Origin: Siphonodentalium dalli
Taxonomy: Eukaryota > Mollusca > Scaphopoda > Gadilida > Siphonodentaliidae
Assembly: GCA_032622095.1 (NCBI GenBank)
Contig: CP136068.1
Span: forward strand, 48,540,443-48,604,442
Direction of reading: 5' to 3'
DNA length: 64,000 nucleotides
Made by a program: the position numbers and the translations under genes. Each line of letters begins with the position of its first letter. Positions within the stretch are counted from its first letter, which is position 1. The notes below the pieces were generated by a model. The model was not told the origin of the DNA. It searched no databases and saw only the letters and a program-made list of their open reading frames with translations. Shown piece by piece: positions 12,421 to 55,425 of the stretch.

Positions 12421-12426
12421 CATTAA

Positions 12427-23880: not shown

Positions 23881-24239
23881 TGAACGGCGATCAGTCTGAG
23901 ACATGACTACTAGAATGAAGGTATAATCCCATCTATACAGAAATCAGATCTGAATAGCAGTTCTAGAGACGAAGATGTGATAAGATTATCACCAGTCATT
24001 TACAGATACTGGTCACGTGAATTGAGTTGATGAGGTATAATGTGTGAATGTACATGTACAGCCTAGTTAGCGCCATATAATGATACTTACTGATGTTTGA
24101 TCCAGTATATATATGTTGATGCCCCGTGCCCCCGAACCCAGGTTCTGGAAATAAATGAAACATAAGGTACGTATAGAGACAAGGTGATCAAATACGTTAG
24201 TCCACACTTCTGAGATATATATTTCTTATTTACAGGGTA

Positions 24240-29958: not shown

Positions 29959-30094
29959 ACAAAAGAGGAGGTGTCGGTTCTACGCTGCCGTAGCATTGCT
30001 TTGGTAATATTGTGCAAATTGTAATTATTTTGGTAGTTTGATTTCTCAACGAACATGGCATGTCACTGACTCACATCTTATAATGGATATAGTA

Positions 30095-31237: not shown

Positions 31238-31375
31238 TTGAATCACATGTTCCAGGATAGGCTGTAGAAGTCTTATAGTACGGCATGCATTGACAGGTGT
31301 GAAGTATCTGGTCACACTGTGTCCCATCTGCCGAACAGTGCTGGTAACACACGGCTCCGTGTGTGGTGCCCACGA
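31238..31375 (-). CDS. Cys-rich EB-like module exon, copy 2
   Basis: Paralogue of the exon at 35649-35786 with the same 138-bp length, 1-1 phase and cysteine pattern (VVGTTHGAVCYQHC..., then CDQILHTCQC). The splice sites are CACTTTCTTGTAG and CAA|GTAAGTGATC. The conserved GTTHGAVC and LHTCQC blocks, with divergence elsewhere, indicate an old duplication under constraint rather than a recent copy. Because it ends in a consensus donor, at least one more exon must lie at lower coordinates; none was identified with certainty (see the candidate at 8491-8700). Confidence 0.72.
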
Positions 31376-31733
31376 CTACAAGAAAGTGTGTTCATTCTCG
31401 GTTATTAAACCTGGTTAAGCTGTCGGGCTATTAAGGGAAATTTATTTTGTTAAATATAATAGAACAAAGGGATAACAGACTTATATTTAAAACAAAGAGG
31501 GACACTAATTGTGGAATAACTTCCATGAATATCAGAAATTTGTAATTATGAATCAAGAAAACTAACAAAACAATATTTTATTGGAACTTATTCCATAATG
31601 TTTTAACAACGTAATACTGAATTATTACGGGAATAAGCCTCAACCTTCATATACATTGCTATTGAACTCATAATAATAGCTATAAAACGTACAAAAGTAG
31701 TACAAGAATAGATAATAAATAGCAAATAAATAG

Positions 31734-31896
31734 ACAGAACACAACGCGCATCTTAATCGAGACTCTTTTATCGAATAAGTTGCGGATGGCGTAAGGATAT
31801 ATTTCGCGAGATCGTAGCTCGAGCGAAATACATCTTTGGGACGTCCGCAACGAGTTCGATACAAGATTCGAGATTATGATGCAAGTTGTGTTCTGT
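31734..31896. repeat. Near-perfect palindrome (163 bp), ACAGAAC ends
   Basis: Ends ACAGAACACAAC / GTTGTGTTCTGT. The arms include TTGCGGATGGCG and its mirror, and the centre is CGCGAGATCGTAGCTCGAGCG. The same GCGAGnnCGTAGnnCGAGC centre occurs in the palindrome at 56787. Confidence 0.75.
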
Positions 31897-31984
31897 ATTT
31901 ATTCTAAACGGTTCAGTCAGATAAGTTAAATACATGAAATTCACCTTCATTGTTACTATAGCTACCTTTATTGTGATGTAAGTC

Positions 31985-32100
31985 TGACAAATAACCAGTA
32001 ATTATGGGGGGAATCACCAAAAGCAGATGGTCGACGTAATGCACGTCATCTTTCTTGGCGACAACGTCAACAAGAATAGTTCTGGCTTGTATTCCACTAG
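31985..32100 (-). CDS. Candidate coding patch between the two Cys-rich exons
   Basis: The minus-strand peptide SGIQARTILVDVVAKKDD followed by VDHLLLVIPPIITG looks protein-like and lies in the intron between the two EB-like exons. With an acceptor at ...ACAAG|CC and a donor at ACTG|GTTATT it would be phase 1-1, as that position requires, but both sites are weak. No family is recognised. Confidence 0.2.
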
Positions 32101-32119
32101 AGGTATACATTAATATGTA

Positions 32120-33260
32120 TTCAATGGCTGGGATTCCGTTGAATACATGTGACTCACGCCAATGGGTGTGGAATAAATAACAGGAAATACCAAGCAGGCA
32201 AATATGTGAAGTATCTTTTTAAATCAGTTTTTGCAGTGATAAGGTATTTATATTTGATGAATCGCGTACGAACCTTCATCAATGCGTCAAGCTGATGGTC
32301 GGGTGGGTGAGACAGAATTTTTGAGAGTCGAAACGTTTGAGTGACTTTAGCGATCTTTGTTTCGAAGAAACATATTTTTTTCTTTTGGATCAATAGGATC
32401 AACTTGCATAGATTGTTTCGGACGGCAGAAGTTTATCCATAACCTGCGCTTCATGTTCTGAAACAGGAATGATATCAGTCCCCTCAACTTGTGTTGCTAG
32501 TGATATACTGACGAGTTTGGTTTGACTCTGTGTCTGAGTGCTTGCATCAACACACTTTTTTGTCATGTGGAATAGATGGTCGAGGACCGACTATTTTCTT
32601 AGCATATTTATATGGTATACATCCAGAAGCCGAGCGACTTTTTGAGACAAGGTAAAAAATTGAAGCGCTGTTGTGGAACGTTTATGATTAATTCAGAGGA
32701 TCATTTCCTCCGCCCACAGAACGGAACAACAAAACACAAGATCCTGACAATTTGGTGAACTAACAAACTCCGTATAACGCAAACAATATCGTAACAGAAG
32801 TGTTAAACGACAAGCACAAAGCCTTTAGTTTAGCAAAGTCACTTGTCAAGTACATTTCACGGTTGAACACTACATGAAATACAGGTACATCTCAAAGCCA
32901 ATCAGAAGGCGGGAAAGTCCCGTGAGATACAACATTAGCAAATAAAGAATAATGACTTGATTTGATATTCAACAACATACTAAAATCAGCAAACATCAGA
33001 AAAACGGAGATTTCTGTTAAATAAATTTGGGGTAATTTGGTCAAATCATAATTTTTAAGATTTTCATGTCCATTTTGTCGATCTCATTTTCCTGATTAGA
33101 GAACTGAAAACCGTTCCTAGATTTGTTAAGGATTTGTCGAGTGATTTGCCTTCAAAACGGGACATAATCTTTTAATTTCGGAGACTCAATTTCTCAGAAT
33201 GATCTAAATTCCATATTACGCGTATTTTTTAAAACTAGAGAAAAAAGCGGGGCTCTTTAC
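32120..33260. other. No supported gene; intronic to the minus-strand gene model
   Basis: Lies between the two EB-like exons. Nothing coding recognised. Confidence 0.45.
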
Positions 33261-33266
33261 TGTTAA

Positions 33267-33723
33267 CCCTTTACCCAACAGAACGGCCCTGTGCCAATGC
33301 ATTCTCTCATATATGCGAGTCGACCATAGGTCGCCTCGCATATATAAGAGAATGCATTGGCTTAACACATATTAAAAATGATAAAATTGTCAAAGAATGT
33401 AGAAAAATATTATACAAATTGTTAAAAAATGTAAGAAAAAATTATAAAATTGTTAAAGAATGTAAGAAAAAATAGTAAAAAGTGTTTAAAAAAGATTTTT
33501 TTTAGGCCAATGCATTCTCTTATATATGCGAGGCGACCTATGGTCGACTCGCATATATAAGAGGATGCATTGGTACAGGGCATAACTGTAACCATCACAA
33601 TGTGATCAATGAACCGGTTCCAATGGTATCCATATTTGTATGGTGTTATTGAGACAGACCGAAGATATTTTAGGCTGTTTAAGCTTTATTTGGGCGTTTT
33701 TGGCCGCTTTGTTGGGTAAAGGG
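33267..33723 (-). mobile_element. piggyBac-like MITE, copy 2 (457 bp)
   Basis: The same family as the element at 12427, inverted. TTAA flanks at 33263-33266 and 33724-33727, CCCTTTACCCAACA termini and the same two nested hairpins. The AT-rich spacer between the hairpins is longer, because a short AT-rich motif (GTAAGAAAAAAT-like) is repeated there. Confidence 0.88.
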
Positions 33724-33862
33724 TTAAAGTAAATTGATTACTAGATTATAAACTGAAAATTATTAATTTATGCTTCTATGATTAAGAAGACATTATATGG
33801 AAAATTTCATATGAAATAGAACTCTCCATATGCATACCTTTTCTCATAACCTATCAATTATG

Positions 33863-33995
33863 TAGAGAGTAATCAATTGGTTGCGAGAATTACGTTAAAT
33901 AATTCACGAGAGGCGAGAGACGTCAGTAAGACAAAAACGTCTCTCGTCTCCAGTGAGTTATTGAACGTAATTCTCCGAACTAATTGATTACTCTA
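33863..33995. repeat. Near-perfect palindrome (133 bp)
   Basis: Arms AGAGTAATCAATTGGTT.CGAGAATTACGTT...GAGAGACG and their inverse, around an A-rich loop (TCAGTAAGACAAAAA). Located just 3' of piggyBac-like MITE copy 2. Confidence 0.7.
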
Positions 33996-33999
33996 TTTA

Positions 34000-35640: not shown

Positions 35641-35648
35641 CCACTTAC

Positions 35649-35786
35649 TTGGCTCGCAGATTCCAGGATCGTCTGAGGAGACTATGTGGTATTGTATACA
35701 TTGACATGTATGTAACGTTTGGTCACATGTCGTCGCCGTGGCAGTACATTGTCGGCAACAGACAGCTCCGTGTGTCGTTCCGATGA
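35649..35786 (-). CDS. Cys-rich EB-like module exon, copy 1
   Basis: An exactly 138-bp (46-codon) exon, phase 1 at both ends, with acceptor ATATTCATTTCAG and donor CAA|GTAAGTGG. It encodes VIGTTHGAVCCRQC... with cysteines spaced C-x3-C-x6-C-x6-C-x-C and a last cysteine near the end (GICEP). The spacing resembles EB or EGF-like Cys-rich modules; I do not recognise the exact family. It has a clear paralogue of identical length and phase at 31238-31375, so the exon has been tandemly duplicated and can be inserted without disturbing the frame. Confidence 0.72.
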
Positions 35787-36648: not shown

Positions 36649-36754
36649 CCCAATTCTCCGAACCTAGGCACTGGTAACCGAGAGCGATGGATAAGTCCTG
36701 TGTACACGTAGAGTAACTTCCACATGGATATCGACTGCATGGGGTCGATGCTAC
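36649..36754 (-). CDS. EGF-like exon of the PAN/EGF/Cys-rich gene
   Basis: A 106-bp exon on the minus strand with acceptor TTTTTCACTTATTACAG and donor GG|GTGAGATA. It enters in phase 0, matching the PAN exon, and leaves in phase 1, matching the Cys-rich exon at 35786. The peptide STPCSRYPCGSYSTC followed by GYQC has the C-x4-C-x5-C...GYxC spacing of an EGF-like module. The usual CxC pair is reduced to one cysteine, so the domain is either atypical or completed by the next exon. Phase agreement on both sides is the main reason for placing it in this gene. Confidence 0.68.
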
Positions 36755-36849
36755 CTGTAATAAGTGAAAAACGTCATAAGACCTATTGCAACATTCTTCC
36801 GTAGACGGTCGTCGCCAGCTGGTTTGTGTCAACGCTTAGCTATTGTGTG

Positions 36850-36902
36850 ACCTTTATTTATAGAATGCCCTTTATTTATTTGTATGCCCTTTATTTATAG
36901 AT
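36850..36902 (+). repeat. Short tandem repeat ATGCCCTTTATTTAT
   Basis: Two to three copies immediately before the LINE remnant at 36903. Confidence 0.55.
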
Positions 36903-37345
36903 CAGAGAATTTACTTTTATCGAAATTTAAGTATTAATGGCTTTCAACCATTAGAAGCTAATCATTTCTTATATGGGGTTAAAGTTATATCAAACCACAA
37001 GCACACTACTCTTTTTCGCATTACTCAATCTTTTACAGCTAGAACAAAGCGGTTTGAACAAACCCATGTATGATAACATGGTAAATCTCGCCATTCATCA
37101 TTCAAACTCACTGAATTCTAGGCTTTTCTTCATAACCGAGATTGGAATACAGATGAAAACCCGACATCCGCAGCACACACACACTCTGCACTATTATGTA
37201 TAAACACTTTGTGCTATATCTGCTATGTATTTTATGTATGTTCCAGGTTTGTATTACAAGAGGGGCAAGTTTGTAAGTTTTGTAACTTGTGCCCCGATCC
37301 CTATGTATATTTTTCTAGATACATTAAAATATGTTTAAAGTAAAA
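36903..37345 (+). mobile_element. Second LINE 3' end of the same family (decayed)
   Basis: Reading from 36903 gives QRIYFYRNLSINGFQPLEA and then LFRITQSFTARTKRF, which aligns with the last ~45 residues of the LINE at 13725 (ERTEMFHMLHREGIKL and LFKIVQHFIAETKRF). The 3' UTR also matches (CTTGTGCCCC, then TTAAAATATGTTTAAAG at 37325-37342). The copy is more diverged than the 13.7-kb insertion, reads on past TKRF to a stop at 37068, and has no clear target duplication. Confidence 0.68.
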
Positions 37346-37461
37346 ATGTAAAGTAGTTATTGTGAACAATTAAGATACGTTAACATGGCATTTACTTTTG
37401 TTAGCTGTGTTAATGTAGCCTGGACCCTTTCATGGCGGGAGCTGCGCTATTGTAGCATTAA

Positions 37462-37605
37462 GGATAATGTACCAGTGCAGGAGCCTCGCATATATAACGA
37501 AATGAACTGGCTGACATGGTCAAGGTAAATAGTGTTAGGCCAATGTATGCTCTTATATATGCGATGCTTCATATAAGAGAATATGCATTAGCATAGGGTT
37601 TTCGT
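37462..37605. mobile_element. Decayed piggyBac-like MITE core (hairpins only)
   Basis: Two degenerate hairpin-arm segments (GCCTCGCATATATAACG near 37482 and GCCAATGTATGCTCTTATATAT near 37542) in the arrangement of the MITE interior, without termini. It adjoins a short repeat at 37423-37465 that is shared, inverted, with 20717-20757. Confidence 0.5.
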
Positions 37606-38303
37606 AAAAGTCACCTTCCCCTGCATGTATAACTAACAGCAGGAATTTAGTCACCACACAGATATAACAATTGTATTTGGTATCAAACATTCAAACCTAT
37701 CGAATAAGAACCCCATAAGTTACAAAGAAGCATATATTTTAATGTTAGTCGCGAACGTCCACGAACGTCCGACCAACGTCAAACTAAACGTCCACAGACA
37801 TCCGACGTCCAACCAATTTCTCACCGAATTTCCATGACATGACCAATATTTAACGTCAAACCAACTTATCACATCTTATGGTAGATCTTAAAACGTGAGT
37901 GCAACGGGTCTACACGGGTGATGTGTTTCAACCCCACTACAACTAAAATAAAAGTTGGAAGTAGCCAACTGCTATGATTTACCAATTTGGACAATATGTT
38001 ATTTATCTGAAGCAATTCACTTCATCCAGCACGGTCATTATACTGTTCAGATGTGAGCTTAATCATCGCCATCTAAACCACCGCGCTCTCACGGGTGTAA
38101 TAGTTGCAGCAATGACATAACAGGGTACATTTGTGCCTGATATATTCGTGAATATATCTTCTTGAAGTAACGTGTGGACATGCCATTAAATACTAGTAAA
38201 GTATGCAGAACAATTGTTCACAAAGTCATCAATTTCAGTCCGAAATCTAATTTGAAAATAAAAAAGAAATTGACCAACAATGTTTCCATTTGGTAAACAC
38301 AAG

Positions 38304-38457
38304 AGTAAATGTTGGGAAAAGCGGACCCTGGTAGTGATAGTGGTAAATGTTAAGACACGCGCACCCTGGTAGTGATAGTGGTAAATGTTAAGACACGCGC
38401 ACCCTGGTAGTGATAGTGGTAAATGTTAAGACACGCGCACCCTGTTAGTGGTCGTGG
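38304..38457 (+). repeat. Minisatellite, 38-bp unit, four copies
   Basis: The unit GTAAATGTTAAGACACGCGCACCCTGGTAGTGATAGTG is nearly identical in the central copies and variant at both edges (GGGAAAAGCGGACC, GTTAGTGGTCGTGG). Confidence 0.82.
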
Positions 38458-39239
38458 TATGGTAGTGAATTGATTGCGAATTATCTCAGTAATGTGGACT
38501 GGTCCAGTGACTTATTATTAAGAATCTATTCCCAAACAAATAAAGCCTTGAAACCAGTCCCCAGCAGAACAAAGCAGAATAAATTAATATTTAATCTCAT
38601 ATTTTATTCGATTGTAATTTCTCGGTTTCTGCGTGGGGTGTTCAATCGATTGTCGTTATATATAATTGAGGAACACATGTATATATACAAACATATATAG
38701 GGTGGATACACACATGCATGTAATGTCTGTATGTAAAATACATGTATTTTACATGGTCACACCAATCATTGATAGCATTAATCGCCTGCGCGAGATCGTT
38801 CCAATTCAACAGGCGAGACCGGTGAGTAGTTATAAGCCAAAATCAAACTAACTGTTATCAAGAGATATCAGGCCAGTCATAAACATGTCTTTTTTCATGG
38901 GTGCCGAAATGAATAAATCCTGTCTGATATATGTTGCTGTTTTTCACGAGTTTTAGTTCATTTCGAAAAGTGGATTTGAGTCTGTCGATTTTATACTTGA
39001 TTTGTTTCTCGTCATTTCTTGGAAACAGGGTCATCCAAAATAAAAAATAAATGTGTAGACTTTTGAAGCTATTTTAGGACGATTGTGATACATGAGTGTT
39101 TAATGCCCCACACACTGACTCCCAATTTGATCTCGTCCAGCAGAACCCGAACGGCTTTCTGGCTCCACATTTTGGAAGTGCTATATTAATACACATGGCA
39201 ATCAACTAACTCATACATGGTGAATTCCATGTTATAAAG

Positions 39240-39335
39240 TGATTTAGCCTAATTGGACAACGCCGAATCGAGTCAGGATAAGGGTATTTGTTCCTCGACT
39301 ATGCATGGCCTCAGTTCAAATTTTAACAATCCGAT
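39240..39335 (+). repeat. Possible decayed tRNA-derived SINE
   Basis: TTAGCCTAATTGGACAAC resembles a pol III A box. The segment AATCGAGTCAGGATAAGG.TATTTG is shared with 40614-40640 (GATCAAATCAGGATAGG.GCGTATTT). There is no clear B box at normal spacing, so this is tentative. Confidence 0.22.
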
Positions 39336-40539
39336 ATGGTGCTCTCATGCCTTGAATACAGGCATTGGAACATTAAGACAGACAATACCAGTTTGTTGAG
39401 ATTGCTCGGATAATTTGAGGGCGAGCTCATGTGATAACTTTCAATTGGGATTTCTTTGCATATATCCATTACAGCGCCAAAACATTAATGCAGGTACAAC
39501 GTTGAAAGAAAAAAGAGTCACCCCCCCCCCCATTTTAACCCAGAATTTACAGAGCAGTGTTTGTTTCTCAGGCCAAAGGATGAACAAGTTCCTAACTGTC
39601 ACCATTTTAGCCTGTACAGGATTGAATTATCACCATGATTGGGGGAGGGGCTGGTTCTCGAAAGTTTCGAATAACTAAGGGATTTAGTTGAATGTATCGG
39701 CCGGGATTATCTGGGCAAGAATGTACAACATAATGTTTTACTTAAATATTCCATAGTTGTAAATTGTGTGTATATAACACAAGAGAGGAAAGGTGGCGTA
39801 GTTGTGGACTCGTAGCTGGACAACCCTTTTTCCGAATGAAGACACACATGCAGCAACACCACCTTCTGTATACCTTCAAATTTAAAGCTGTAATAATATG
39901 TTCATAATTATATGAATAGCATCAATTGCTGCATATGAGATTAATCACTCGTAGCAAACAGGCACGGCAGATATGACTGTCAACTACAATATTTACAAAT
40001 CAGGAGTGGCTTCGTGGCTTCAGGGGGGTAGGCCTCATGTTGCTGCATGCCCCCCTCCGGTCGATGAAATATGTAATTGTCAGTCCGGTAGCTTCCGGTA
40101 TAATATAGCCCCTACATTGTGGAAATCCTGGGACCATCACTGGTATACAACCAAGAGAAGACTGACAATGATTTAAACAGAACGTCCAACATTTGGGTTA
40201 TCGCGCGAACAATTATTTTAAGCGGCCTGACGACTTCGTCCAGTCAACGACACTCTACACGCTCAGAGCGTTACTCACTGTGGTCAAACATAGCCGCAAT
40301 GATTGGGTTATCAGCAGACACATATTACATGGTCTGTATGATCCATGTAAAACGCCAAATACACGATATTTACAGAGATTACATGCATGTGTGTATCCAC
40401 CCATACACTGTACCAATGGCCACACATGATGAAATGCCAACATGTACACTACACATGTAGCAGGACCCAGTCATTATTAACATACAATATGAGTTCTTGA
40501 GTTTACCACATGTATGTATCCAAATTACATGCAACGCAC

Positions 40540-40645
40540 GGGCTCCCGGTGGCTCGGTTATAAAGGAACATAGCGCATTAGGCTATAATTAGCCGCACAG
40601 CACTAGCAAAGCTGGATCAAATCAGGATAGGCGCGTATTTCCAAA
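40540..40645 (+). repeat. Possible decayed tRNA-derived SINE
   Basis: GGTGGCTCGGTTATAAAGG (A-box-like) is followed about 70 bp later by GGATCAAATC (B-box-like) and the same GTATTT extension as at 39280. Weak, based on motif similarity only. Confidence 0.22.
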
Positions 40646-41414
40646 TCACATAAGGGAGACAAGCCTGGTTCGTTATCTGGACACATTTGTTAGTTGCTCA
40701 CCAGGGGATGGTTTCTAATTGCAGTGTTTGGATTAATTTCCCAATAAAATCTGCAATTCAATTAAATTATGTGCGGCCTTTCCTCCACCAAACATGTAAC
40801 GCCTGCATTCAAAGTCTGACTAACTTAATAAAAAAAATGTCCTATATATAATTGTGTCATTCTTTTGTGCCTGGTTCGCCCCCTCTTCGTCGGATCCGTT
40901 CAAAATGTAAATATTTGGCAAACAGTCGTCGAAGAAGCAATGAGTATGCCCTTATATAAGCTATAAGCCTCATATTACCAAATAGTCGGTGAGTAGTTAA
41001 CCCATATAGTTTGGTTACCTGTGTCTTCAGATTTTATTTTCATGGGGATCTTGGAAACCATATTGTTTTAAATGGTAATGCTTACAGAGTTTGGTAATTC
41101 ATGGGGTTTTTTTTTCGACGCCCCCGGCAGACATTTGGGATGTTTACAAATGGCCCCCAAATAATTATATTAACCTGTTTTCTCATTGTTTGGAACTACC
41201 CTATGGACAGATATACTCCAAAAAGTATACTTATTAATTTAAAATGGATCACTGACTAAGTCTGGGTAGACTTGTTTTCATGTTAACCAAACAAGCAGCA
41301 ATGATGAAAAGGCTATGGACAAATTATGGGTTTGTCTCAATATACACCATTACATGGTCAACCAATCAACTTGATGGCTCTGATTTACAAACAGCATCGT
41401 GATTGGCCGAATAA

Positions 41415-41450
41415 AGGCATGAAACTTAGTACATATGTTCTTTGAACCAA
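41415..41450 (+). repeat. Short block shared with 47990-48020
   Basis: GGCATGAAACTTAGTACATATGTTC here and AGCATGAAACTTGGTGTATATGTTC at 47993 are related interspersed fragments of unknown origin. Confidence 0.4.
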
Positions 41451-43529
41451 GCGCAATATTTTTTGATGGAGCTTTCCAGCCTACCTGACATTGGTAAGTA
41501 GTAATATGGTTTTTATGGCAACTGCATCTAAATAATTGGAAACAAAACAGAAAATACACGTTTCTGTAACACTAATTTGTATGTTTAGTGTTAGTATATA
41601 TGTTGGCATTGAAAGTGCAAGTGATTGTTCACATCATGGTCGACACAAGAGACAGTCACCCAGTTAAGTCAAGGTCATTGGTTGAAATGTTCATTTGTGA
41701 CAGGTAATTCTACATTCCCCTGACCATTGGTGTATATATTTCGCAAATAACACCGTGTGATTGCCGTAAAATCGCATATTCCTATAACCTTTAATTTGAT
41801 ATCAACTGTCTTATATATGTGTATTCAATTTTCAAGTTTTAACTTATCAGTGTCATACATGGGGCCTGACATTTCAGATTTTGTTAACTCAGCTGCCTAC
41901 ATTTGGAGCTGTGTGTGATCATCAAGGTGGTCTGGGAGAAAACATCGAACAGCTTGACAGATAAATAGACAGACATATCCTACACTTGTTTGTATATAAA
42001 TACACTTGTTTATATATAGTGAGATGCCTAGATCCAGCAATCGCATACCATGTATATATTATTGATTGTGTTTGCACACTAGTGGATCTAACATTCTACA
42101 TCTGACAAAACTTGTTGAGAGACCACTGCGCAACCGAGACATCATTGGAATAGCTCGGGATAGAACATGCATCAAAATTAGAAGAACAAATTTGCCCGAA
42201 ACTGTAAGGTTTTTTTTCTTATTTCCCCTGACGCATTGTTTTGTGGGGTGATTATGATTAACTACACTCAGTATGGGTTTCGTCGAAAGGGTAGACACTA
42301 AACTTAATTTCGTAGTTTTTATGACAATCGTACATTCGGGAATCTGAGAAATCCAAAAATCACACTAATGTGAATCGTACGTGTCACGTAGTGGAGCAAC
42401 CACACATGATGTGCCTCAAATTTGCCTTTTTTCGGCGACATAACGCTAAGAATAATTTATTTAACACCATGCAGTGGTCACGACGGAGACGACATGCCAA
42501 ATTGACAAGACGTGTCGTTGATTGTAAGATCTTGTCTGGATTATCGTCGTGACTTCTTCATTTTTCGTTTTCATTAAAGCTGACCAACGAAAATGGTCTA
42601 AATGAAATTAATAGAATTAAATCACATGTGAATTCTTCGTAAGTTGTGAAGTAGTTACTTTCATTTTTATCGCGATGCTACATTTCCAATTCCGCGTTTT
42701 TGCAATCTCCACACGGTTGCAAACCGGAAGTCAGTTGACAATTTCTCCTAATTCTATACCCGCTATCTTGAAAAATCACTGATGGATATATAAAAATATA
42801 TTTGACGTCATTCACTTGCCTTAGGTATAAGCACTCTTGGTGGTTGCTATAATTAAACGACGGGGATCCACCAACAGGAAGTTTTAAAACCCCAATAGGG
42901 TATAGGAAACTCTTCGCTTTGGATAAATAATTATAGAATATAAACTACCAACGTATTTACTACCAATGTAGAAGACAGTTATATGTTGTCGGTGGGAGCC
43001 GGGAGTATTTTATTGAAACTAAACACTATCTTTCGTTCCGCCGTGGAGATTCCCTCATAACTGGTTGGGATGCGATATGGCTATGCATATCCACTTTATC
43101 GTACTCATTCCGTCCATAAAATGTTCTCCATGTAGCTTTCCCAATTGTCCTAATTCTAGTAAACGACGCACGTTTCTATTCAAGTAATAGTAGGAATAGG
43201 ATATAAATATAGTTTATCAGATGCATATGACGTAGTTCTATGATAATTCCGTATTTAAAATGTTTATGTCAGTTTATGTTAGTTTTTATGAAATTTGTTC
43301 GCATGACCAACATTGTAGTGCCGACAACAGCCACATTGTACATCAAGTGTTTTGCATTACTATTTAACTGGAAAATACATATGTGACGTGATAAAGTGTA
43401 TTCAATCTGGACGTGTACACGTTGGTCTATAATAAAAATGTTAACCAATTTATTTCATAATCTGTTTTAAATACTCACATATTTGGTACATAATTTGTTG
43501 GTCGTGAAAATTAAAACATTCTAGATAAA

Positions 43530-44330
43530 TGTACAACTGACAAATTTCAAGTGTTATCCAAAACGTTCCTATACGGATTGAGAATGCAATTTGTGGATGT
43601 CTGCCTGTCCGCCACATAAATTAACGACGGACTATCTAGAAGTTGCTCCGTTCGAGTCAGATTGAGGGAGGGGACGGGCATCAAATTTATCAAATATATT
43701 TACCGCCGACTTCATTCAATTAATATATATTCGTATGCAATGCATCTAATATATGAGGGCTAAATAAAGGTAAATTGGTGCCGTTCGTGTACGGTGGAAA
43801 AGAGGGAATACAATTTATAAGAATCTTGTAGTCGCCGATTTCCACAATAATTATATTTTCTCAACTCCTTGATAGATGATTCCAATGAAATCAAAGTGGT
43901 CATATTCGAGTCAGGGATGGGGAGGGAAGGTGCACCAAATGTTAAAAAAGTGTTGTCCGTTAATTGTATTAACAAACTTATAGCTCATTATCTCTATGCT
44001 GCAAGGACACGAATGGTGTATCCTTAAAGGTGATGTCGTAGGACCTTGTTTGGAGAGATGAGTACAGCAACATTGATAATATATTTATCGTCAAATTCTT
44101 CCAAACTTAATACGATGTATAAATCTTAACGAAACAATAAATCTAATGGTGTACACGTTTTAAATTTCTAGAGTCAGGGTCAGGGATTGTGGTCAGTCGA
44201 TGGCACCAGAATTGATCAAACATTTTTCTGACATGCAATTATTACAAAAATAAGATTGGCTTCCCATGAGTCTGTTTCAAAGTTGGTGGAGCGGTGGCAG
44301 GGCCGGGAACCTTGTTAATATATCCAATAT
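43530..44330 (+). repeat. Degenerate tandem repeat, ~125-bp period
   Basis: Related blocks of the form GAGTCAGnnTGnGGnnGG...CACCAAATTTAT...CGCCGATTTC occur near 43663, 43785, 43910, 44172 and 44270, spaced about 97-262 bp (one to two periods of ~125). The same block recurs at 54217-54480, so it is a dispersed satellite family. Confidence 0.5.
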
Positions 44331-44839
44331 TTTCCAAAGTAAGCTGTTAGACTAACAAACTGTCAGAAGAGCTCATCCCTGTTAACTCAACAAATCGAAG
44401 ATGCAACATAAGAAGATTTTAGAGATCAAATTTCACAACCTCGAAAATGGTGATCGAAGTCACTTGAACTCGAAATAATTCTTCTCAACGGTGATATTTA
44501 TATATTTATACACGAGATTCATAGCCGACTAGAACAAATTGATTTCGGTTTAGTCTGTATCCTCCAATCCAATTGCCTGTATAACATTTTATTACACGCT
44601 TGTTCCTAGAAGTACAGCGTTATTGCTGTTCCATATTTACAAATCCGTATGGAACGTACGTTCCATGCGCATCTCGTTGACGTAAAATGACGTACATGAC
44701 GTTCGCCTCAACCATGAAACTGGAACTATTTAAATAAAAGAATCACCACACATGACAAACACGCCCTGTATGAGCCTAAATAAACCTTCTAATCATGTAT
44801 TTTTAATGCACGGATTCTAGGACCCGAAGCGTGTAATAA

Positions 44840-44996
44840 ACACAGAACGACACGGTGTGTAAATGAGTTTGTCGATATGGCACTCGTGCTGTCGCGGAAG
44901 GATAGAACTCGAGGCGCAAGCGCCTCTCGTTCTATCCTTCCGCGACAGCACTCGTGCCGTATGACAAACTCATTTACACACCGTGTCGTTCTGTGT
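44840..44996. repeat. Near-perfect palindrome (157 bp), ACAGAAC ends
   Basis: Ends ACACAGAACGACACGG / CCGTGTCGTTCTGTGT, centre CTCGAGGCGCAAGCGCCTC. The arms differ at only a few positions. About 45 bp downstream is an AATAAATATGTTTAAA motif like the LINE 3' tail. Confidence 0.78.
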
Positions 44997-45729
44997 ATGT
45001 ATGTATCATTTACTATATGTGTTATCAAATTAGACAAATAAATATGTTTAAACTAAAAACTTTATCCAATTTTCCGAATGTTCGTCTGTCTGTCCACTAA
45101 ACAATTCGCATTTTACAATATAGAGGCTTCCAAATGAGTTTAACTGCAAGAACCATTCCTGACTCCTATCCACGGGCATCTTGTTGTAAAATTTTAACTT
45201 GCAGCTTTGTATAGCTACCCCACGGCAAATGTGGACACCAATACCGATGAAATTTATTGTAACAAATTCCATTCAAACTTATATATATATCATCATCCAT
45301 CAGAGTTATGGAGTCCGTTCGTTTCGGCACTAAAATGTAGACCCGTTTTATGTAATAAAACGCCGCCCTCTGTGCTCCCCGAAGAATTGTGATGGGCCAA
45401 TCTCTTCTATCAGAATATTATATGAATATTAAAGAGCATTAAAGAGCATCATAGTCCCCACGTGCAAGGGCGTGCACACACCGGAAATACACTAGATACA
45501 TGTACATAATATATAATTATGTAAGAGTATAGTGTGTGCTTATGGTTTGCTTGTGAGCTAGAGCTTTATAATTCCGTCAATGATTTAACAGCTGGAAATT
45601 TTCAAAAAGTAGCTTCCACATATCGATCCAGTGAGAATCAATCGTGAAATTATTCAGTATAATCATGTCATAGTTGTGATCACACATGTAATATTTAGTG
45701 CACTTCGCGGTGGTCTGATGGTTAACATT

Positions 45730-46440
45730 TTAAAGGCGCAGACAAGACATATTTTTTTCTTATACTCATTGCCCCAATTTGGAGATTTTTGCGATCCTAG
45801 TCATCGTCTATTTTATAAACAATCACTGCATTTTATTGAAATTGGATGGCGTTTACTCACAAGCAATCATAAAATGTCAGCATCAAATCATTGTAAGTTG
45901 AACATTACAAATAAGTCCGTTCCGTGTAAGTACAAATTTTAACCCTCGGACCAATCGCGAATTAAAGACACGGTTGGCCTTGGCGGTGGGTATCCTGTGA
46001 AAATATCCCCACCCGTCAGAAACAGCCACAAACAGAAAGAACATCAAAATGTAGATAGACTTTGTCCGTATACAAATAAGAAATATCGCATAAACAGTAT
46101 GTTATGGTCATATGTTTGACCATTGTTATGTAAACAGAAGCGTAAAAAGTAACTTTTCTGGTGTTTGTTTATATTATGATGGTAAACATAAAGAGCGTTC
46201 TTTGTTGGTGAATACCTGATATGGAACTAATAAAGAGCGTTTATTCCATTTGTATGTGATTAGCCAGTAGCATTGTGCTGTCTTCTGTAACACAATCAGG
46301 CTCTTGCTTAGGTAAAATTACGCGATGGTCATGGTATATATGAACGGAATTGTATGCGTTTTACTGTTTTTCTGTTTACGGTGTTTGGAACAAAAATGAA
46401 TATTTTCGACAATTAAGGCCGCACGTGCCTTTAATGCCTA
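45730..46440 (+). repeat. Interspersed repeat family R1, copy 2 (~700 bp)
   Basis: Second copy of the repeat at 23280. Its outer ends look like short inverted repeats (TTTTAAAGGCGCAGAC at 45728 and ACGTGCCTTTAATG at 46425), suggesting a MITE with a TTAAAGGC terminus. Confidence 0.6.
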
Positions 46441-46449
46441 AAGTCGCCT

Positions 46450-49430
46450 TGATATGTGATTGAAAAGTATATAACTCGAAAATGCTGTATGGTATTTGCA
46501 AAACAATTATCAAATGAACAAACGGACAAAAGATACATTGAACGTTGTGTATAGTATCACTCGCGTACGTGCCGTTCTCTTTGTTCTGTTCTATCTCATG
46601 AAATGTGCAAATGCATTTATTATTTCTACGGGAAAGAAGAACCAAGTTTACCCCAGACTGACTATCAAAAGTTAAATAGTTCAGCACAAACACTGACCAG
46701 AAAGTTGAAAATCAGCAAATCAATAACATCGATGTGTTGTAGAAGCTGATTGCAATACAGTTGCTCGAAGAAATGCATTCGGAAATGGATTTTTAATACA
46801 ATATTATTTGAAAACTGAATACTGTTATAATAGCTTCACCAAACAGGGAAAATAGAACACAATTATATATCAAACTTTGACTCTCAAAAACACCTGGTCA
46901 AACAGAAACACAAGCACATTTGATCTGGTAATCACGGTAAACAATGAGATCGGGACAAGCCTTTTAACTTGGACTCGAAGCCCAGTTATATTAACTAAAA
47001 TGTTGTTCGAAATCGGCAACAGTTGAACCGATGAGCTAATTTTGCTCAAGAATACCAAGGTCGATAAAAAACATTGGATATAAATGACTTTAACAAATGC
47101 AATTATATACGCAAGTTGGTGAATCACAAAGCGAATTGTGTTCTAGAAGATCAAACTTAAACTCACAACAAAGATATGAAACTCTCAATTAAGTACGATA
47201 TTCATTATGCAAATCATAAAGCGTTCGTTTCATTTGTGACCGAACATCATAGTTGGACAAAACTATTACCACAAAACAAACATTATACCAAACACGAACA
47301 AAAATTGTTTCATAAAATTGTCTGTCGACCACTGGCAACCAGTGTATCATGCTTCGTATGTCGACAATGTTCTCCTTGGATAGAATATGTTTTGTCCATC
47401 GCTGGAGCTTCCAATAAAATGCTATCTGCTGTGTATGTAAACTGTCTCCCTTTGGTGTTGGGGATCAGATATACAATCGAGAATGTACCATCACTAACAC
47501 GCACGTTGAACGCACACTGAAATCAGTGCATGTGTCACTTTTGTGAATAGGACTAAACTGTAATTGATTATAGCAGCGTGATCTAATGGACACAAGTTGT
47601 AGTGTTGATTGCACTCAAATAACTCAAATATATTGTATTTCAGTGGCTGCAATGCATTGTTGTAGGTATCTTGCGAAAGTGTGCCAATTGTCTACACCCA
47701 TTCTCATACTGACCGATCGAAGTCGCTGAAAGGTCGCTTAAATTGAAACTCATCCCACTGGGCAACACAATGGAATATTTTACTTCAATGTACGGCCATC
47801 AGCTGAAATATCAAAGGCAAATATATCGTATTGTGTGAGTCAGTTTAAAGGAATGCGAGGCTATATTCTAAAATAATGAGTGTGATAAATCGCCTTGAGA
47901 GATCAATCAGATTGGTCCATTCTTGCCAGAACATAAGAATTAGTTCAGGCGCTTGGTGCATGAACTTGTAAGAATTGCACAAATTACGGTAAAAGCATGA
48001 AACTTGGTGTATATGTTCCTTTGACTGATCATTGTCAGATATAGACCCCATCGAGATTTGGCCCTGCTTATCAACGGTTGCTAGGCAACTACCCGAAAGT
48101 ATAAAATGTTCATATAAGGATGGATTACAGTATTTCATTCAAATTTAGTTGTGGTGAATTACATATTTGAGATCTAGTTGTGACATAGGAATCATTAAAA
48201 GGCTTGTCCATATTAACAGTTGCTATGCAGATACCCATCGATACAATGTATCTTTGGTACTCTTCTTGGTGAAATTTTTGGAACATTATTGATGGTAAAT
48301 TAATCTGAAATACATTTGACATGTGCTAATACTTCACATAGTGTATATTGCATAGGGATGGATAGTTTCTATACAGATTGAAGATGTCCTTGCGACCGTT
48401 CTTACGAGACCTACCCGTTTTTGCTTTATATCAACATCATCAATGATCACAACGCGAAATGGTTGGTGAAAATAGTGTAGTCATACCCTGGGTAGAATAT
48501 GTTCATTATTCAGTAGTGAAACATGATCCTCCAGAATTAAAGCCTTAATAAAAATTACAATCATAGATTATTATATCCAAACTAATTGACAATATTGATG
48601 ACTTCTAAAGTTTTTGGAGTGGGAATAATAGAAGAAAATAAAGCAAGGTAAGTTTGTTACTATATTAAGTCCTTGGACCCACTGTGTGTGGACGGAAGTG
48701 AACGCTGGTTTGCGGTAAACACCCATAAATAAAAGTCGCTCACCTCAGACTGACTACGATACGTATATTTCCGTCTTTTCCTCCAATTGTGTAAAAAAAC
48801 CCATCCCGGGTAACAATCTGCCTCGATGAGGGGTGCGTTCCACTACATTTTCGTGCTAATTACGTTTCAGTGTCCTGGCTACAATGTACTCTCGTAAATC
48901 AAGGTTAAACATCCTGTTTTCGTGCTAAAAACACGTCACGTTTGCGATCAAAAGCACATTTTTTTAAACTATACGATGTCGTATTTAATAACAAAGACAT
49001 GTTTTTGATGCCTTAATATCCCATTGAAAGCCACGCTTAACGTTTAGCCCCTGTTTCCTGTGTTTTCTAACTTGATTTTCACATGTCACAAATGTACATT
49101 TTTACATTTCCACAGCCAATATTGCTACTTGTGCTAACAAATGTTTATTAAAATGGTCAAATGTCACAGTCAAGATATGAGATGCATTATATCATCCTAC
49201 AAATGGTCCTTGAATGTCCATTGTTTGAGATTTTCCTTCGTTTGTTATCTTAACTAGCACTTTAACTATCATGAGTAACCATGAAAACCCCACACTCTTT
49301 TGTCAATGGTAATCTTTTATATTTTAAAACTATAGATTAACTATAGTTTACAATGTGCTATAATTTATCCAAAATACGACAAATTGTATCTTGGTTTAGT
49401 GAAAATAAGTCACATTTTTTGAAAAATTAC
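46450..49430. other. Large intron region, candidate coding patches only
   Basis: Apart from the patch at 47395-47520 and a short interspersed block near 48000, no coding or repeat structure is recognised. Confidence 0.4.
47395..47520 (-). CDS. Candidate coding patch of unknown family
   Basis: On the minus strand the acceptor-like CACTGATTTCAG is followed by CAFNVRVSDGTFSIVYLIPNTKG, which has the alternating hydrophobic pattern of beta strands. No clear donor or known domain was found. It lies in the large intron of the minus-strand gene. Confidence 0.17.
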
Positions 49431-49439
49431 GAATAGGCG

Positions 49440-49610
49440 CCTTCTCCCAACCCCATACCTGACCTGGTTGGCATCTGTAGGTAAAGTTAAACAACATAAG
49501 TTTCCTCTTTCCATGGACAAAAACATCTCTCCCTTTTCCACCGTATACCGTGACAGAATCATCAAAGAAGTCTTTGACCTGCACCGTGATCTTCCTCAGA
49601 AAATGATGCC
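49440..49610 (-). CDS. Candidate exon of unknown family within the 18-kb intron
   Basis: A coding-looking minus-strand patch reads RKITVQVKDFFDD, then VTVYGGKGRDVFVHGKRK and NFTYRCQPGQ. It has protein-like composition and a phase-0 donor (CAG|GTATGG), which would suit insertion between the PAN and EGF exons. The acceptor is unclear (GTGCAG|GTC is possible). I cannot assign a family. It may be a real exon, a pseudogene fragment or an open repeat. Confidence 0.25.
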
Positions 49611-49693
49611 CTTGTTAGACCCCTTAGTGGCCCCATAGGTCGACCCCGTTAGTTTATACAGGGAACATACAGACATTCGCAAATATATATATA

Positions 49694-50200
49694 CTAGCAG
49701 GTGGACCCGACTTCGTCCGGGCTGTTTCCCCTCTGCTTTTCGGCGAATTGCGCGATTTGACCTTGAATTGTCATATTTGAAGGTCAAGGTCAGGTGGGGT
49801 CACGATTTGACCGTCCAAAACACTGCCCGGACAAAAGTACCCGACAAAAGGACCTTGAGTTGAACATTTTGAAGGTCAAGGTCAGGTCGGGGTCACGATT
49901 TGACCCGTTCAAAACACTCAGTGGACAAAAGTAACCCTATGTATCAAAATTCGTCGAAATCCCATCAAAATTCGCGATTTGACCTTGAATTGACCCGATT
50001 TCAAGGTCACGGTCACGTCGCACGGGCAAATGAATAGGATTATGACATTCTCCGTACGAAAGTATCCCTAGACACTAAGTTTCATCGAAATCCCGCAATA
50101 CTCGGGCGTTTTACCTTCAAATGACCCGATTTCAAGGTCAAGGTCACGTAGCAACACCGGGCCGAACCATGGTCGGCCCGGTGTGTCACTGTCCCTCCCC
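49694..50200 (-). mobile_element. Helitron-like 3' end with AAGGTCAAGGTCA-rich body
   Basis: On the minus strand the sequence ends with the hairpin CCCGGACGAAGTCGGG, a short spacer and CTAG followed by T, as expected for a Helitron 3' terminus (hairpin then CTRR before a host T). The body (49740-50155) has about four degenerate repeats of GACCTTGAATTGACC...TTTCAAGGTCAAGGTCACG. A near-perfect palindrome (ACACCGGGCCGAACC/GGTCGGCCCGGTGT, 50154-50185) lies at the far side. No Rep/helicase frame; the 5' end is not identified. Confidence 0.5.
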
Positions 50201-50611
50201 CGTGACCAATACTAAACTGCTAATTAGTTTAACAAAACAATAGTTTAGCACATTCGGTCAAACTTGTGGACTGAAATGGTCATCAGTTGGAGAATTTTCC
50301 AACCTAAGAGGGAGTATGAGGTTTTAAATTTCCAACTCTAGGGAAGCTTCAGTTGAGGCCAGTCTAGATGCTAGGATTTGCGATTTTCTTGTATAGTTTT
50401 CCAAATTTTCTCACACCGGGCTGAACAAACATGGACGGACACAATGTCCTGGTGTCTTACCCTTAGCCGTGTGCATTTGTCTGGAGTAGGCTACTTGATG
50501 TTAGGATTTATGCAATTCTCAGGTTAAAGTATCTGAATTTTCTTATACCGGGCATATAGAACAACATAGTTTATGAATACATAGGATATTAGGCATGAGG
50601 ACTGATGTGCA

Positions 50612-50815
50612 AAGGGGTGCAAATGGAATTATGCAAAACGTGTGTTTGGTCTGTGATTCTGATTCAAGGGGGTGCAAATGGAATTATGCAAAACTTGTGT
50701 TTGGTCTGTGATTCTGATACAGGGGGGGGGGGGGGTGCAGTTGGAATTATGCAAAAAGTTGTTTTGGTGTGATTCCGACTCAAGGGGGGGTGCAGTTGGA
50801 ATTTCCCAAGGTGGA
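50612..50815 (+). repeat. Minisatellite, ~57-bp unit, 3-4 copies
   Basis: The unit GGGGGTGCAAATGGAATTATGCAAAACTTGTGTTTGGTCTGTGATTCTGAT..., with variable G-runs between units. Confidence 0.75.
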
Positions 50816-50909
50816 CACCCCCCACCAAGGCGTTACCATCTCATCGCGTTCATATTATTGGAGCAATGAAATATGCCATTCATAGCCCCTTCCGAGCCCT
50901 CAAAAAGTT

Positions 50910-51620
50910 GAGTGTGTGTATACATGGAATGACGTGGGATGCTGTATTGTCATGGGTGTATATATATACATGTTTTGGCTGAATGATTATGGGTGTGGTG
51001 TGTGGATAAATAGAGAGTGTGTAATATTGGTAATGTATATACGTGTACATGGAATGATTGAATTGTCATGTTTGTTGAATTGTATATGATATATGTATAG
51101 CTGGATGGTCATCGGTGGGCGTGTGAATATTTTGGAAGTGCTATTGTGGTATGGATGTATGTGACATGTTTATACATAGCTGTTGCTGATACATTGTCAT
51201 TTGTGTGTGTATATGTGTAAAGGGAGTAGATGGATGGGGTTTATGGGTGAATTGCTATGGGTGAGGTTTATATGCAAGTGTACAAATGGCCGTGTGCGAG
51301 GGGTATTGGTATGTCCATTCAATGGTGAGATGTATATGTTGATTTGGAGTTAATCTATGGTGTGTGAGGTGTATACGTATATACTGAGTGCCTATATGGC
51401 TATGGATGAGGCAAATAGTCTAATAAGGAGTGACCATATGGCCAATGGTGGAGTGAATAGGTATACAATGCGTGACTGTATGGTCACAAATATGGTGTAT
51501 GATTGTCGTGGGTGATGTGTATATTTGAATCTGGACTGTATGAATGGCCGATTGTGCGTGTATTGGTATATATATGCATGTATAGAAGGGTTGTATGGTC
51601 ACCGATGGGGTGTTTATTTC
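50910..51620 (+). repeat. GT-rich degenerate minisatellite
   Basis: Loose repeats of TGGATGGTCAT.GGTG.GTGTG, TATATGTGTA and TGAATGATTATGGGTG over 700 bp. Period about 40-60 bp but very diverged. Confidence 0.5.
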
Positions 51621-52074
51621 TTCATCTGTCCTTATTATTTAAAACTAGCGAGAACTGGACTGCATGTAGTACACATTGATCAGCTACCAGACGGTCCAAC
51701 CAGCGTAACCAATGAAAAACATTATTTTATATTCAGCTCTTCAAAACTATATAATATCATCGAAACGTTAAAGCAACGATGAAATAGATTGGATCAATAA
51801 AACGGAACCCACATAATATCAGTCTGTAATTTTTACACCTGCATATAACATTTTTTCTGTGATTTGAATCCTCTTACCTCCGAACCAACCCAACTTTTAC
51901 TAATCATTATTATTCTATTTGTTTCAGCCTTGACATATCCCTATGAGTATTGTATATACCCATTTAACTTTAGCATCAGTTCTAATCCGTTGCTGTTAAT
52001 TTGGTCATCATTGAGGAGAGAAGGGCTTTTCTATGTTGAAATAACTTGTGTTTCCCATCCCCATTGTTCTCCCT

Positions 52075-52243
52075 ACTGTCTGTCTCTCACTCTACTGTCT
52101 GTCTCTCACTCTACTGTCTGTCTCTCACTCTACTGTCTGTCTCTCACTCTACTGTCTGTCTCTCACTCTACTGTCTGTCTCTCACTCTACTGTCTGTCTC
52201 TCACTCTACTGTCTGTCTCTCACTCTACTGTCTGTCTCTCACT
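52075..52243 (+). repeat. 19-bp minisatellite (CTACTGTCTGTCTCTCACT)
   Basis: Nearly perfect head-to-tail copies, about nine. The three overlapping open frames encoding SVSHSTVCLSLYCL-type repeats are a by-product, because the 19-bp unit cycles through the frames. Confidence 0.9.
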
Positions 52244-52685
52244 TGTAAACAATTATGTATGAATCCATTTTCGTTTGACATTTCTAATACATTTTGTCAT
52301 CAATCATGGTAACGTCGGCGATGTTGAAATGTTTGTAAGTAATAAACATATTCGAGCTTGCATATGCACCACTCTGCGCGGAATGCCTCCGTGACCAAAC
52401 AGTCTGAGTTAGTTATGTCATCACAACCCGCAGCCAAGATTGATTTTTCTGAAGTCAGCTGCGTGGTTCTCTGCTTTCGAGTTTATCTCATTGATGTCCA
52501 ATACATAACTATTTCAATATAATTAGCTGGAGCATATAAACATCCCATCGTCGTAACAAACTGATGATGCAGTGATGGTCTACAGTATGTAGATCCGCCG
52601 TGATCGTGTTTAATATATACATTTGTCTTCAGCAACGATAAGAATTGAAAATGTCATCAGATCCAAGACTTTTTAAAAGTATTTC

Positions 52686-52752
52686 TGTCAGTTTTGAATT
52701 CGCGCAGCCAGGTGCGCGAATTTAAAATGCGCGAATTCAAAACTGAGCGAAA
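52686..52752. repeat. 19-bp perfect inverted repeat with GC-rich loop
   Basis: TCAGTTTTGAATTCGCGCA and its exact inverse around a 21-bp loop that contains a third GCGCGAATTtaAAA half-site. Confidence 0.65.
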
Positions 52753-52935
52753 AATAGTACTGCGTAAATTTAAATACGAGTAAGGTATTGGTATCTCCGT
52801 TATATGAGGAATTCAATTGTATCGTTTGTGTAAACATATTTACAATCCCAAATTAACATAAACATACATGTATATCAATTCAGATAAAAGCAATATAACG
52901 AAATACATAAATGAAATTCTTGTAAAGGGCCTTAA

Positions 52936-53327
52936 CCCTTTACCCAACAGAAGGGCCCTGTGCCAATGCATTATCGTATATATGCGAGTCGACCATAGGT
53001 CGCCTCGCATATATAAGAGAATGCATTGGCCTAACACATTAAAAATTATAAAATTGTTAAAGAATGTAAGAAAAAATTGTAAAAAGTGTTAAAAAATGAT
53101 TTTTTTTAGGCCAATGCATTCTCTTATATATGCGAGGCGACCTATGGTCGACTCGCATATATAAGAGAATGCATTGGCACAGGGCATAACTGTAACTATC
53201 ACTATGTGGTCAAGGAGCCGGTTCCAATGATATCCATATTTGTATGGTTCTATTGAGACAGACCGAAGATATTTTAGGCTGTTGAAGCTTTATTTGGCCG
53301 GTTTTGGCCGGTCTGTTGGGTAAAGGG
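52936..53327 (-). mobile_element. piggyBac-like MITE, copy 3 (392 bp)
   Basis: TTAA flanks at 52932-52935 and 53328-53331, with the same termini and nested hairpins as the copies at 12427 and 33267. Close similarity across all three copies, including the hairpin arms, indicates recent amplification. It lies within the proposed large intron of the minus-strand PAN/EGF gene. Confidence 0.88.
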
Positions 53328-53741
53328 TTAAGTTTGTTCCCAGCTGTGTTGTTTGAATGTGCTAAAGTAATACTATGAGTCCCAATGGGAGTTGGAGGAG
53401 GACCACCAAAATCGATAGCTAAATTTATTGAATTTCAACGAAACATTAATTCAGTAGAGAAGGGGTTCACATATAAGTTGATGTATCCGTGAGAAAAGGA
53501 ATATTTAGCGATTAGTTTCAGCTTCGAAAGTGCGTGCAGCACCACCCCACCCACCCATGACACAGACAATGTTTGTTTAAGGTAAAATTGTAAGTGCAAG
53601 CTTTGTTTGTCAAGAAATGTCTTGTAGGGATATATGTGCATGTTATCCGAGAGTAAGCACGGTCAAATGCGTGGTATTCATGTTACATACGTATTTGTAT
53701 TTTACATGCATTTTTGATATTATAATATGCTGTACGATATG

Positions 53742-53872
53742 CACACTGAATCTGCATACTATATCATATATATACACACTGAATCTGCATACTATATCAT
53801 ATACACACTGAATCTGCATACTATATCATATACACACTGAATCTGCATACTATATCATATACACACTGAAGC
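53742..53872 (+). repeat. Minisatellite, ~28-bp unit (CACACTGAATCTGCATACTA)
   Basis: Four to five copies of CACACTGAATCTGCATACTATATCATATA; the last copy is diverged (GAAGCTACATACG). Confidence 0.8.
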
Positions 53873-54199
53873 TACATACGTTAACATGTCTTTCTAGATT
53901 AAAACTTAGTTCCTAGAATTCGTAGTTGTTATTCTGTAAATAATTTATTATTATTCGAGTGAAACGATTAAAACATATAAAGACATCTTATCGCAGATTT
54001 TCTCCAAACGTATTGACATCACATCGAATGGTTGATATAAAACATTTCCGAAATTGCGCCTTCTGAATCAGGGATGGATTACGGAGCAAGGCATCAAAAT
54101 TTCAATCAAATGTTACAGCCGCATTTTTTACATGATATATAGGTATAGATATCTATATATATTTCCACGATTCGAGCATTCTAATTGTGAGCATGGATT

Positions 54200-54480
54200 T
54201 AAATTGATGCCACTGGAATCAGTGACGATGCTTGGTGGAAGGCAACACAACTCTACCGAGCTCTCTAAGTATACAATGTGCATTATTTTCATCTATCTAA
54301 CGGTGAAGTTTATAGTTGAGCAAGTGGTGCTGTCCGAGTCAGGTAATGATGACCAGTGGAAGTGGCACCAAACTTTATTAAAAGAACTCTCGCCGATTTC
54401 ACCGATATGGATATCTTCATGATTCGACATATAGCGTTGTTTAATTTTCTGAATTAGTCGCGCTGAGTCAGGGGGGGGGG
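54200..54480 (+). repeat. Degenerate ~125-bp repeat, second locus
   Basis: Blocks at 54217, 54337 and 54465 (GAATCAGTGACGATG..TGG, GAGTCAGGTAATGATGACC..TGGCACCAAACTTTAT, GAGTCAGGGGGGG) are spaced 120 and 128 bp and match the family at 43.5-44.3 kb. Confidence 0.5.
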
Positions 54481-55140
54481 GGGTATCTGTGAACCATAAT
54501 AGTTAGGTGCTCGGCTTATTCTTTCGAATTAATTAAGAACACAGAACTATTTAGCCAATTCGTATTGTGCATATTTACTATAGTCGGTATACTGGTACAC
54601 GTATGGAAATATCAAAGCTCTGATTACTTGTTTACATGGACAGCGCCAGATAACCCTGCCGGGACACAATGTATACATAAATTAGATACAAGTACGTACC
54701 CACCCTAGATGGCATAATCTACCGGTATGCGATTATTCATTCGTTTTTCTCTTTTTGCTGTGACAATTTAAAATTGAAGGTTAAGAGAATCGGAATATCA
54801 AAATAAAATTGAATCGAAAATCACCTAGCATAACGCGAGATATCTCCCTATACAGTACTATGGATAATACTGATTAGAAGATAATTGTTTTAATACTGTA
54901 AGAAAATAGATTAACATAGCACATGTTTGAGTATATGTGTACTTAAAGTTTAATGATAAGATGTCAATTCATGAAATAATATAATACAAATTAGTTTTCA
55001 CTTAATTGGATAAGGTTTATTAGAATAGGGCCATAAGTTATGACTGAAACATTTGAAGCCAAATTTACTACACCCGTTAAAAAAATTGTCTCCAAACTTT
55101 CGCAACAAGGGTAATTTCTTCAGTAGTACAATGTACCTAC

Positions 55141-55425
55141 CGCGGGCGCTTTATCGGCGTATTCATACTGTGGACCGACGGGGAAATTTCCTGTTCCAAA
55201 CTCCACGAAGTAGCACATTCTGGTTGCGACATCGAATGTCACGGACTGGCATCCGACGGTGTAGACACATGACTTTTGACATCGCCGAATGTTGAGAGTT
55301 CGAAATGTAGGGTAAGCTCGTAGACCCGCCCCGGGTAAGTAATTGGCACCACAGTCACTTACAAAAGATGTATAAAACATAACTGCTAAAATTCTTAAGG
55401 AGCACAAGTTGAAAGTAGAACTCAT
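55141..55425 (-). CDS. Secreted PAN/apple-domain protein, first coding exon (signal peptide + PAN)
   Basis: First coding exon of a multi-domain extracellular gene. The ATG at 55425 starts a hydrophobic signal peptide (MSSTFNLCSLRILAVMFYTS, cleavage near residue 23). A PAN/apple-type module follows, with C25, C49, C53, C59 and C71; the C-x3-C-x5-C-x11-C spacing with an SVTFDV strand after the third cysteine is the family signature. The exon has 95 codons, ends in ...KAPA and is followed by GCG|GTAGGTAC, a good donor in phase 0. The next in-phase exon on this strand is the EGF-like exon at 36754, implying an intron of about 18.4 kb loaded with repeats. PAN modules bind proteins or carbohydrates. 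An alternative with an acceptor at 55358 is possible, but the in-frame signal peptide makes it less likely. Confidence 0.7.

Follow-up and report, generated by a model that had tools for sequence, protein, structure and literature searches.

A probable minus-strand gene for an exported protein that joins a PAN domain to two paralogous cysteine-rich modules

Four exons on the minus strand of the window (the whole 64-kb stretch of DNA that was analysed) probably form, at roughly 60%, the 5' and middle part of a single animal gene, perhaps molluscan by general resemblance, whose modular product would be exported. The evidence supports a modular extracellular-type gene of a known kind, which combines a PAN domain with two paralogous cysteine-rich exons. 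Read in order, the protein would begin with a signal-peptide-like segment, followed by a PAN/apple module, a four-cysteine module and two tandem disulphide-rich modules of ~46 residues with EGF-like cysteine spacing. Export is suggested by the hydrophobic N-terminus, and a membrane anchor may follow later in the protein. This reading and two of the alternatives weighed below, namely a pair of adjacent genes and a gene ending in exon 4, are not all mutually exclusive. As known now, the locus is a normal animal gene fragment.

All four exons proposed in the first-pass annotation were recovered on the minus strand, with lengths of 285, 106, 138 and 138 nt for exons 1 to 4, GT and AG at their borders, and junction phases of 0/0, 1/1 and 1/1 in the same order. 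Their join reads through 222 residues without a single stop, which bears out the claim of four exons with consensus splice sites and matching phases. The exons and the proposed first intron are located as follows.

55141..55425, minus strand: exon 1, starting with ATG and a hydrophobic, signal-peptide-like N-terminus, with PAN_1; 285 coding nt, GTAGGT donor in phase 0
36649..36754, minus strand: exon 2, 106 nt, phase 0/1, a four-cysteine module
35649..35786, minus strand: exon 3, 138 nt, phase 1/1, copy 1 of the cysteine-rich module, with seven cysteines
31238..31375, minus strand: exon 4, 138 nt, phase 1/1, copy 2 of the cysteine-rich module, with six cysteines, next to a GTAAGTG donor
36755..55140, minus strand: proposed intron 1, 18,386 nt, carrying one MITE copy along with several tandem repeats

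Scored with a rough splice-site matrix, the donors of exons 1 to 4 are equalled or bettered at 39, 26, 22 and 22 of the 3786 minus-strand GT sites, respectively, and the acceptors of exons 2 to 4 at 4, 122 and 180 of the 3021 AG sites. We also scanned both strands for internal exons, retaining every open candidate of 80-250 nt over thresholds of 1.5 and 4.2; these thresholds were placed just under the scores of exons 2 to 4, which makes the scan a check of specificity and not an independent discovery. The minus strand gave eight rows in six intervals, three of which are exons 2, 3 and 4, and the plus strand gave five rows in five partly overlapping intervals. A fourth minus-strand interval falls within a recombinase ORF. 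When further copies of the four exons were sought in the window by tblastn, exons 3 and 4 matched each other; among the matches listed, the best other rows had E values of 0.57 and 0.86 for the modules, 0.98 for the PAN exon and 0.30 for exon 2. Rfam at the gathering threshold and ARAGORN returned no matches.

Exons 3 and 4 are a genuine coding-exon duplication. The two exons are identical at 90 of 138 nt, compared with a mean of 36.6 identical positions (27%) and a maximum of 65 in 20,000 random pairs of 138-nt windows. Changes at third positions dominate, as shown by identities of 36/46, 35/46 and 19/46 at codon positions 1, 2 and 3, and the similarity fades at the splice sites, the adjoining 100 nt on each side being identical at only 34/100 and 33/100 positions. 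Both exons have the donor GTAAGTG in common, and the introns behind them have diverged. Furthermore, protein-level constraint acts on both exon copies. The NG86 method gave a dN of 0.30 and a dS of 2.56, the latter saturated, and none of 5000 neutral simulations with an equal number of changes attained the observed identity of 26/46 residues, a count in which the split first codon is taken as identical. A stop was present in 4101 of these 5000 simulations.

Growth of mosaic proteins through duplication of symmetric phase-1/1 exons is well known. Here, a single such exon, whose addition or skipping leaves the reading frame intact, was duplicated to give exons 3 and 4, and selection on the protein has since kept both module copies. 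With matching phases, strong constraint and diverged introns, the pair offers a clear small case of protein growth via symmetric exon duplication. The same features could also fit alternative exons, mutually exclusive or optional, that do not both enter one mRNA, since exons 3 and 4 are paralogous, equal in length and phases, and each skippable in frame. However, we saw no sign of exclusivity, and tandem modules are in general the commoner result of such duplications, so that we consider this use of the two exons improbable. It is more improbable still that the gene has decayed and that its exons are mere remnants: the introns are big and repeat-rich and the 3' end was not recognised, but all four exons are without stop or frameshift, their splice sites are intact, and the constraint between the exon 3 and exon 4 copies is exerted at the level of the protein.

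The PAN/apple module that had been claimed for exon 1 was confirmed by a match to PAN_1 (PF00024), which scored 26.5 bits against a curated Pfam cut-off of 21.4, although the match spans only part of the profile, from position 20 to 58 out of 76. The score remained above the cut-off in exons 1 and 2 joined (25.9 bits) and in the full 222-residue join (23.7 bits), and the score of PAN_4 fell under its own cut-off. The exon thus resembles PAN/apple proteins in its PAN_1 match and in its core cysteine gaps of 3, 5 and 11. Unlike those proteins, the predicted product has a single PAN followed by small cysteine modules, and neither a protease nor a kringle was recognised in the visible part of the gene. 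The PAN domain would be the extracellular binding part of the protein, and the cysteine modules may serve as a stalk or as an additional contact surface.

A search of PDB sequences with the PAN exon returned micronemal protein 4 (E 0.44) and hepatocyte growth factor (E 0.89), neither of which is significant. The structural model of this exon, built from a single sequence, was poor (mean pLDDT 44.1), and no significant fold match was present among the best 50 of 589. The Sarcocystis lectin SML-2 appears among these 50 with E values of 0.99 and 1.6; we take it to be an apple-domain lectin, and it is the sole apple-domain protein that we recognised in the listed fold matches.

At its start, exon 1 is hydrophobic (best 9-residue mean of 2.12), and by eye this N-terminus lacks an ideal cleavage site. 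The best of the 12 acceptors near the start of exon 1 scores 0.3, compared with 1.57-6.06 for those of the accepted exons, which makes the ATG at 55425 plausible as the start. Four hydrophobic initial-exon candidates were found upstream, with donor scores of 3.3-3.6, and all of them end in phase 2. They may provide an alternative 5' end, since this phase fits the weak acceptor at 55393 (score 0.3).

The splice from the PAN exon to exon 2 would span 18.4 kb and is the weakest link in the gene model, since we infer it only from phase and splice sites. The same arrangement could reflect two adjacent genes, one at 55.4-55.1 kb encoding a short PAN protein, from a single exon or with some other splicing, and the other a cysteine-rich protein in which exons 2 to 4 are attached to another first exon. 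Read-through of the PAN exon meets a stop six codons past the donor, yielding a 101-residue protein, and AATAAA/ATTAAA signals follow at 55021, about 100 nt on, and at 54954 and 54894. Furthermore, phases would agree across the 18.4-kb gap by chance in 1 case in 3, and the gap contains one phase-0 hydrophobic initial-exon candidate (46778-46698) with a hydrophobicity of 2.34 vs 2.12 for exon 1. Conversely, the donor of this candidate is weaker than that of exon 1 (3.3 vs 4.3), just 39 of the 3786 GT sites reach the score of the PAN exon donor, and the exon 2 acceptor is among the top 4 of 3021 and fits in phase. We regard two genes as unlikely and retain the single gene in what follows.

Exon 2 contains four cysteines, separated by gaps of 4, 5 and 11, and its likeness to an EGF domain ends with the fourth cysteine of that domain. 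Its earlier designation as an EGF module is borne out only as this partial resemblance; the six cysteines with a C-x-C pair and the Pfam match that the name implies are both lacking, and the exon differs from EGF-like proteins in having four cysteines only. Exon 4 contains six cysteines with gaps of 3, 6, 6, 1 and 13, and exon 3 contains one additional cysteine. These two exons had been labelled EB, a module with eight conserved cysteines. Like EB modules (PF01683), they are short, cysteine-rich and in tandem. In contrast to EB modules, they have six or seven cysteines, in an EGF-like layout, and no Pfam match, and we do not maintain the label.

The likeness of the exon 3 and exon 4 modules to EGF-like proteins lies in their C-C-C-C-x-C-C arrangement, to which exon 3 adds its extra cysteine, and in their phase-1/1 exons. 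Exons of this phase are typical of many shuffled extracellular modules. Both modules agree with the order and spacing of the six EGF cysteines, but a match to an EGF profile is absent and the last gap is 13 residues long. By eye, the PROSITE EGF signatures do not fit them. No Pfam family was found in exons 2, 3 or 4 up to an E value of 10, a limit at which the HMMER filters still drop most weak matches, and the Pfam search of the joined exons accordingly yielded the expected PAN_1 and neither of the expected EGF and EB families. The NCBIfam search gave no family for any of the four exons, and the search of PDB sequences gave no match for exon 2 or for the alignment of the exon 3/4 modules.

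AlphaFold modelled the exon 4 module, from a two-row alignment, as a short helix and a hairpin with a mean pLDDT of 71.9. Foldseek returned 12 rows for this model, none of them significant; the top four are Pfs25 (best E 1.6), an EGF-domain protein. A search of viral contigs for relatives of the module gave 57 pattern matches, none of which was confirmed. Exons 3 and 4 could represent an undescribed, lineage-restricted family of disulphide modules with the pattern GTTHGAVC...C...C...CQC...PG.C, joined to PAN in a family of receptors or recognition proteins that is confined to the lineage and varies in its number of duplicated phase-1/1 exons, a proposal that we consider speculative and doubtful. 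If the module family were limited to one lineage and differed in copy number, its members could be recognition proteins of interest for comparisons across individuals and species. For the order of a PAN domain followed by cysteine modules, no description was found in the titles and abstract openings of the domain literature, which were covered in part and give weak evidence. In animal extracellular proteins, unfamiliar module orders are unremarkable by themselves.

Exon 4 is probably not the final exon of the gene. It is probably spliced onward because it shares the GTAAGTG donor with exon 3 despite the divergence of the introns, and one or more additional exons probably lie below 31238. A search for the next exon downstream gave 28 candidates with strict thresholds and, between 3.0 and 31.2 kb, 74 with looser ones, none of them convincing. 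Two terminal candidates from the looser search, at 26416-26334 and 25991-25837, have the hydrophobicity needed to span a membrane; they were rejected for weak acceptors (1.5 and 0.7, respectively) and a lack of other support. The nearest candidate with a good acceptor, at 30991-30900, lies in sequence that seems repetitive by eye.

Alternatively, the gene could end in exon 4 by read-through of the donor at 31237, and would then encode a complete secreted protein. Read-through meets an in-frame stop two codons past this donor, AATAAA/ATTAAA signals lie at 31221 (ATTAAA), 31034 and 30737, and 3.0-31.2 kb holds no convincing later exon. The 64-kb minus strand has 124 AATAAA/ATTAAA sites, which gives an expectation of ~1.2 per 600 nt, and three were found in each of the 600-nt segments searched past the PAN exon and past exon 4. 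In contrast, only 22 of the 3786 GT sites match or beat the donor score of exon 4, and GTAAGTG has been kept in exons 3 and 4 while their introns diverged. An end at exon 4 is in our view quite unlikely, and onward splicing from exon 4 is preferred.

The introns of the gene carry repeats and mobile elements. Satellites had been reported in the largest intron, and several tandem repeats were found there. The LINE fragments reported for intron 1 were not confirmed in the nine ORF segments chosen for the search, a subset that gave one chance-level Pfam match (E 0.037), below the cut-off. The MITE reported for the largest intron was found again as a MITE-like element at 52931-53332, and it belongs to the following set.

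33263..33727, strand unassigned: MITE-like element in intron 3, with the ends TTAACCCTTTACCC / GGGTAAAGGGTTAA
52931..53332, strand unassigned: MITE-like element in intron 1, of the same family as 33263-33727
12423-12823: third MITE-like member, 97% identical to the copy at 52931-53332

The ends of this family (TTAACCCTTTACCC and its inverse) would presumably fit a piggyBac-type TTAA target.

Other features of the window.
60965-62926, minus strand: recombinase-type ORF with DUF3504 and Phage_integrase profile matches
4073-4423, plus strand: candidate lectin segment 1, matching Lectin_C when joined to 5758-6027
5758-6027, plus strand: candidate lectin segment 2, matching Lectin_C when joined to 4073-4423
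13828-14358, plus strand: LINE-like ORF, 176 residues
12423-12823: MITE-like family member
33263-33727: MITE-like family member
52931-53332: MITE-like family member
24239-25274: long tandem array, 11-nt-based ATTTGTATATG, ~94 units
29586-29960: long tandem array, 22-nt unit CTAACTTGATTAAACAAGTTAG, ~17 copies

The recombinase-type ORF runs for 653 residues without interruption and is, by its sequence, Crypton-like. It scored 113.3 bits against DUF3504, 46.7 bits against Phage_integrase and slightly below the QRICH1 cut-off. Judged by eye, it carries the tyrosine recombinase residues R, HxxR, H and Y, in the motifs GFRGSHE, HSLRK, SGHKN and NNYAT. In contrast, PMC3212892 reports a preserved catalytic site in none of seven domesticated DUF3504 genes.

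Joining the two lectin segments gave a Lectin_C score of 30.4 bits (cut-off, 22.6), and neither segment alone returned a profile match at E 0.1. These segments are probably exons of a C-type lectin gene, as predicted from sequence.

The LINE-like ORF resembles the C-terminal end of LINE proteins; its zf-RVT match stayed under the cut-off (E 0.095).

The three MITE-like copies form one family with TTAACCCTTTACCC termini and internal palindromes, of which further incomplete pieces lie at ~16.8 kb and ~37.5 kb. The 22-nt unit of the shorter tandem array is near-palindromic.
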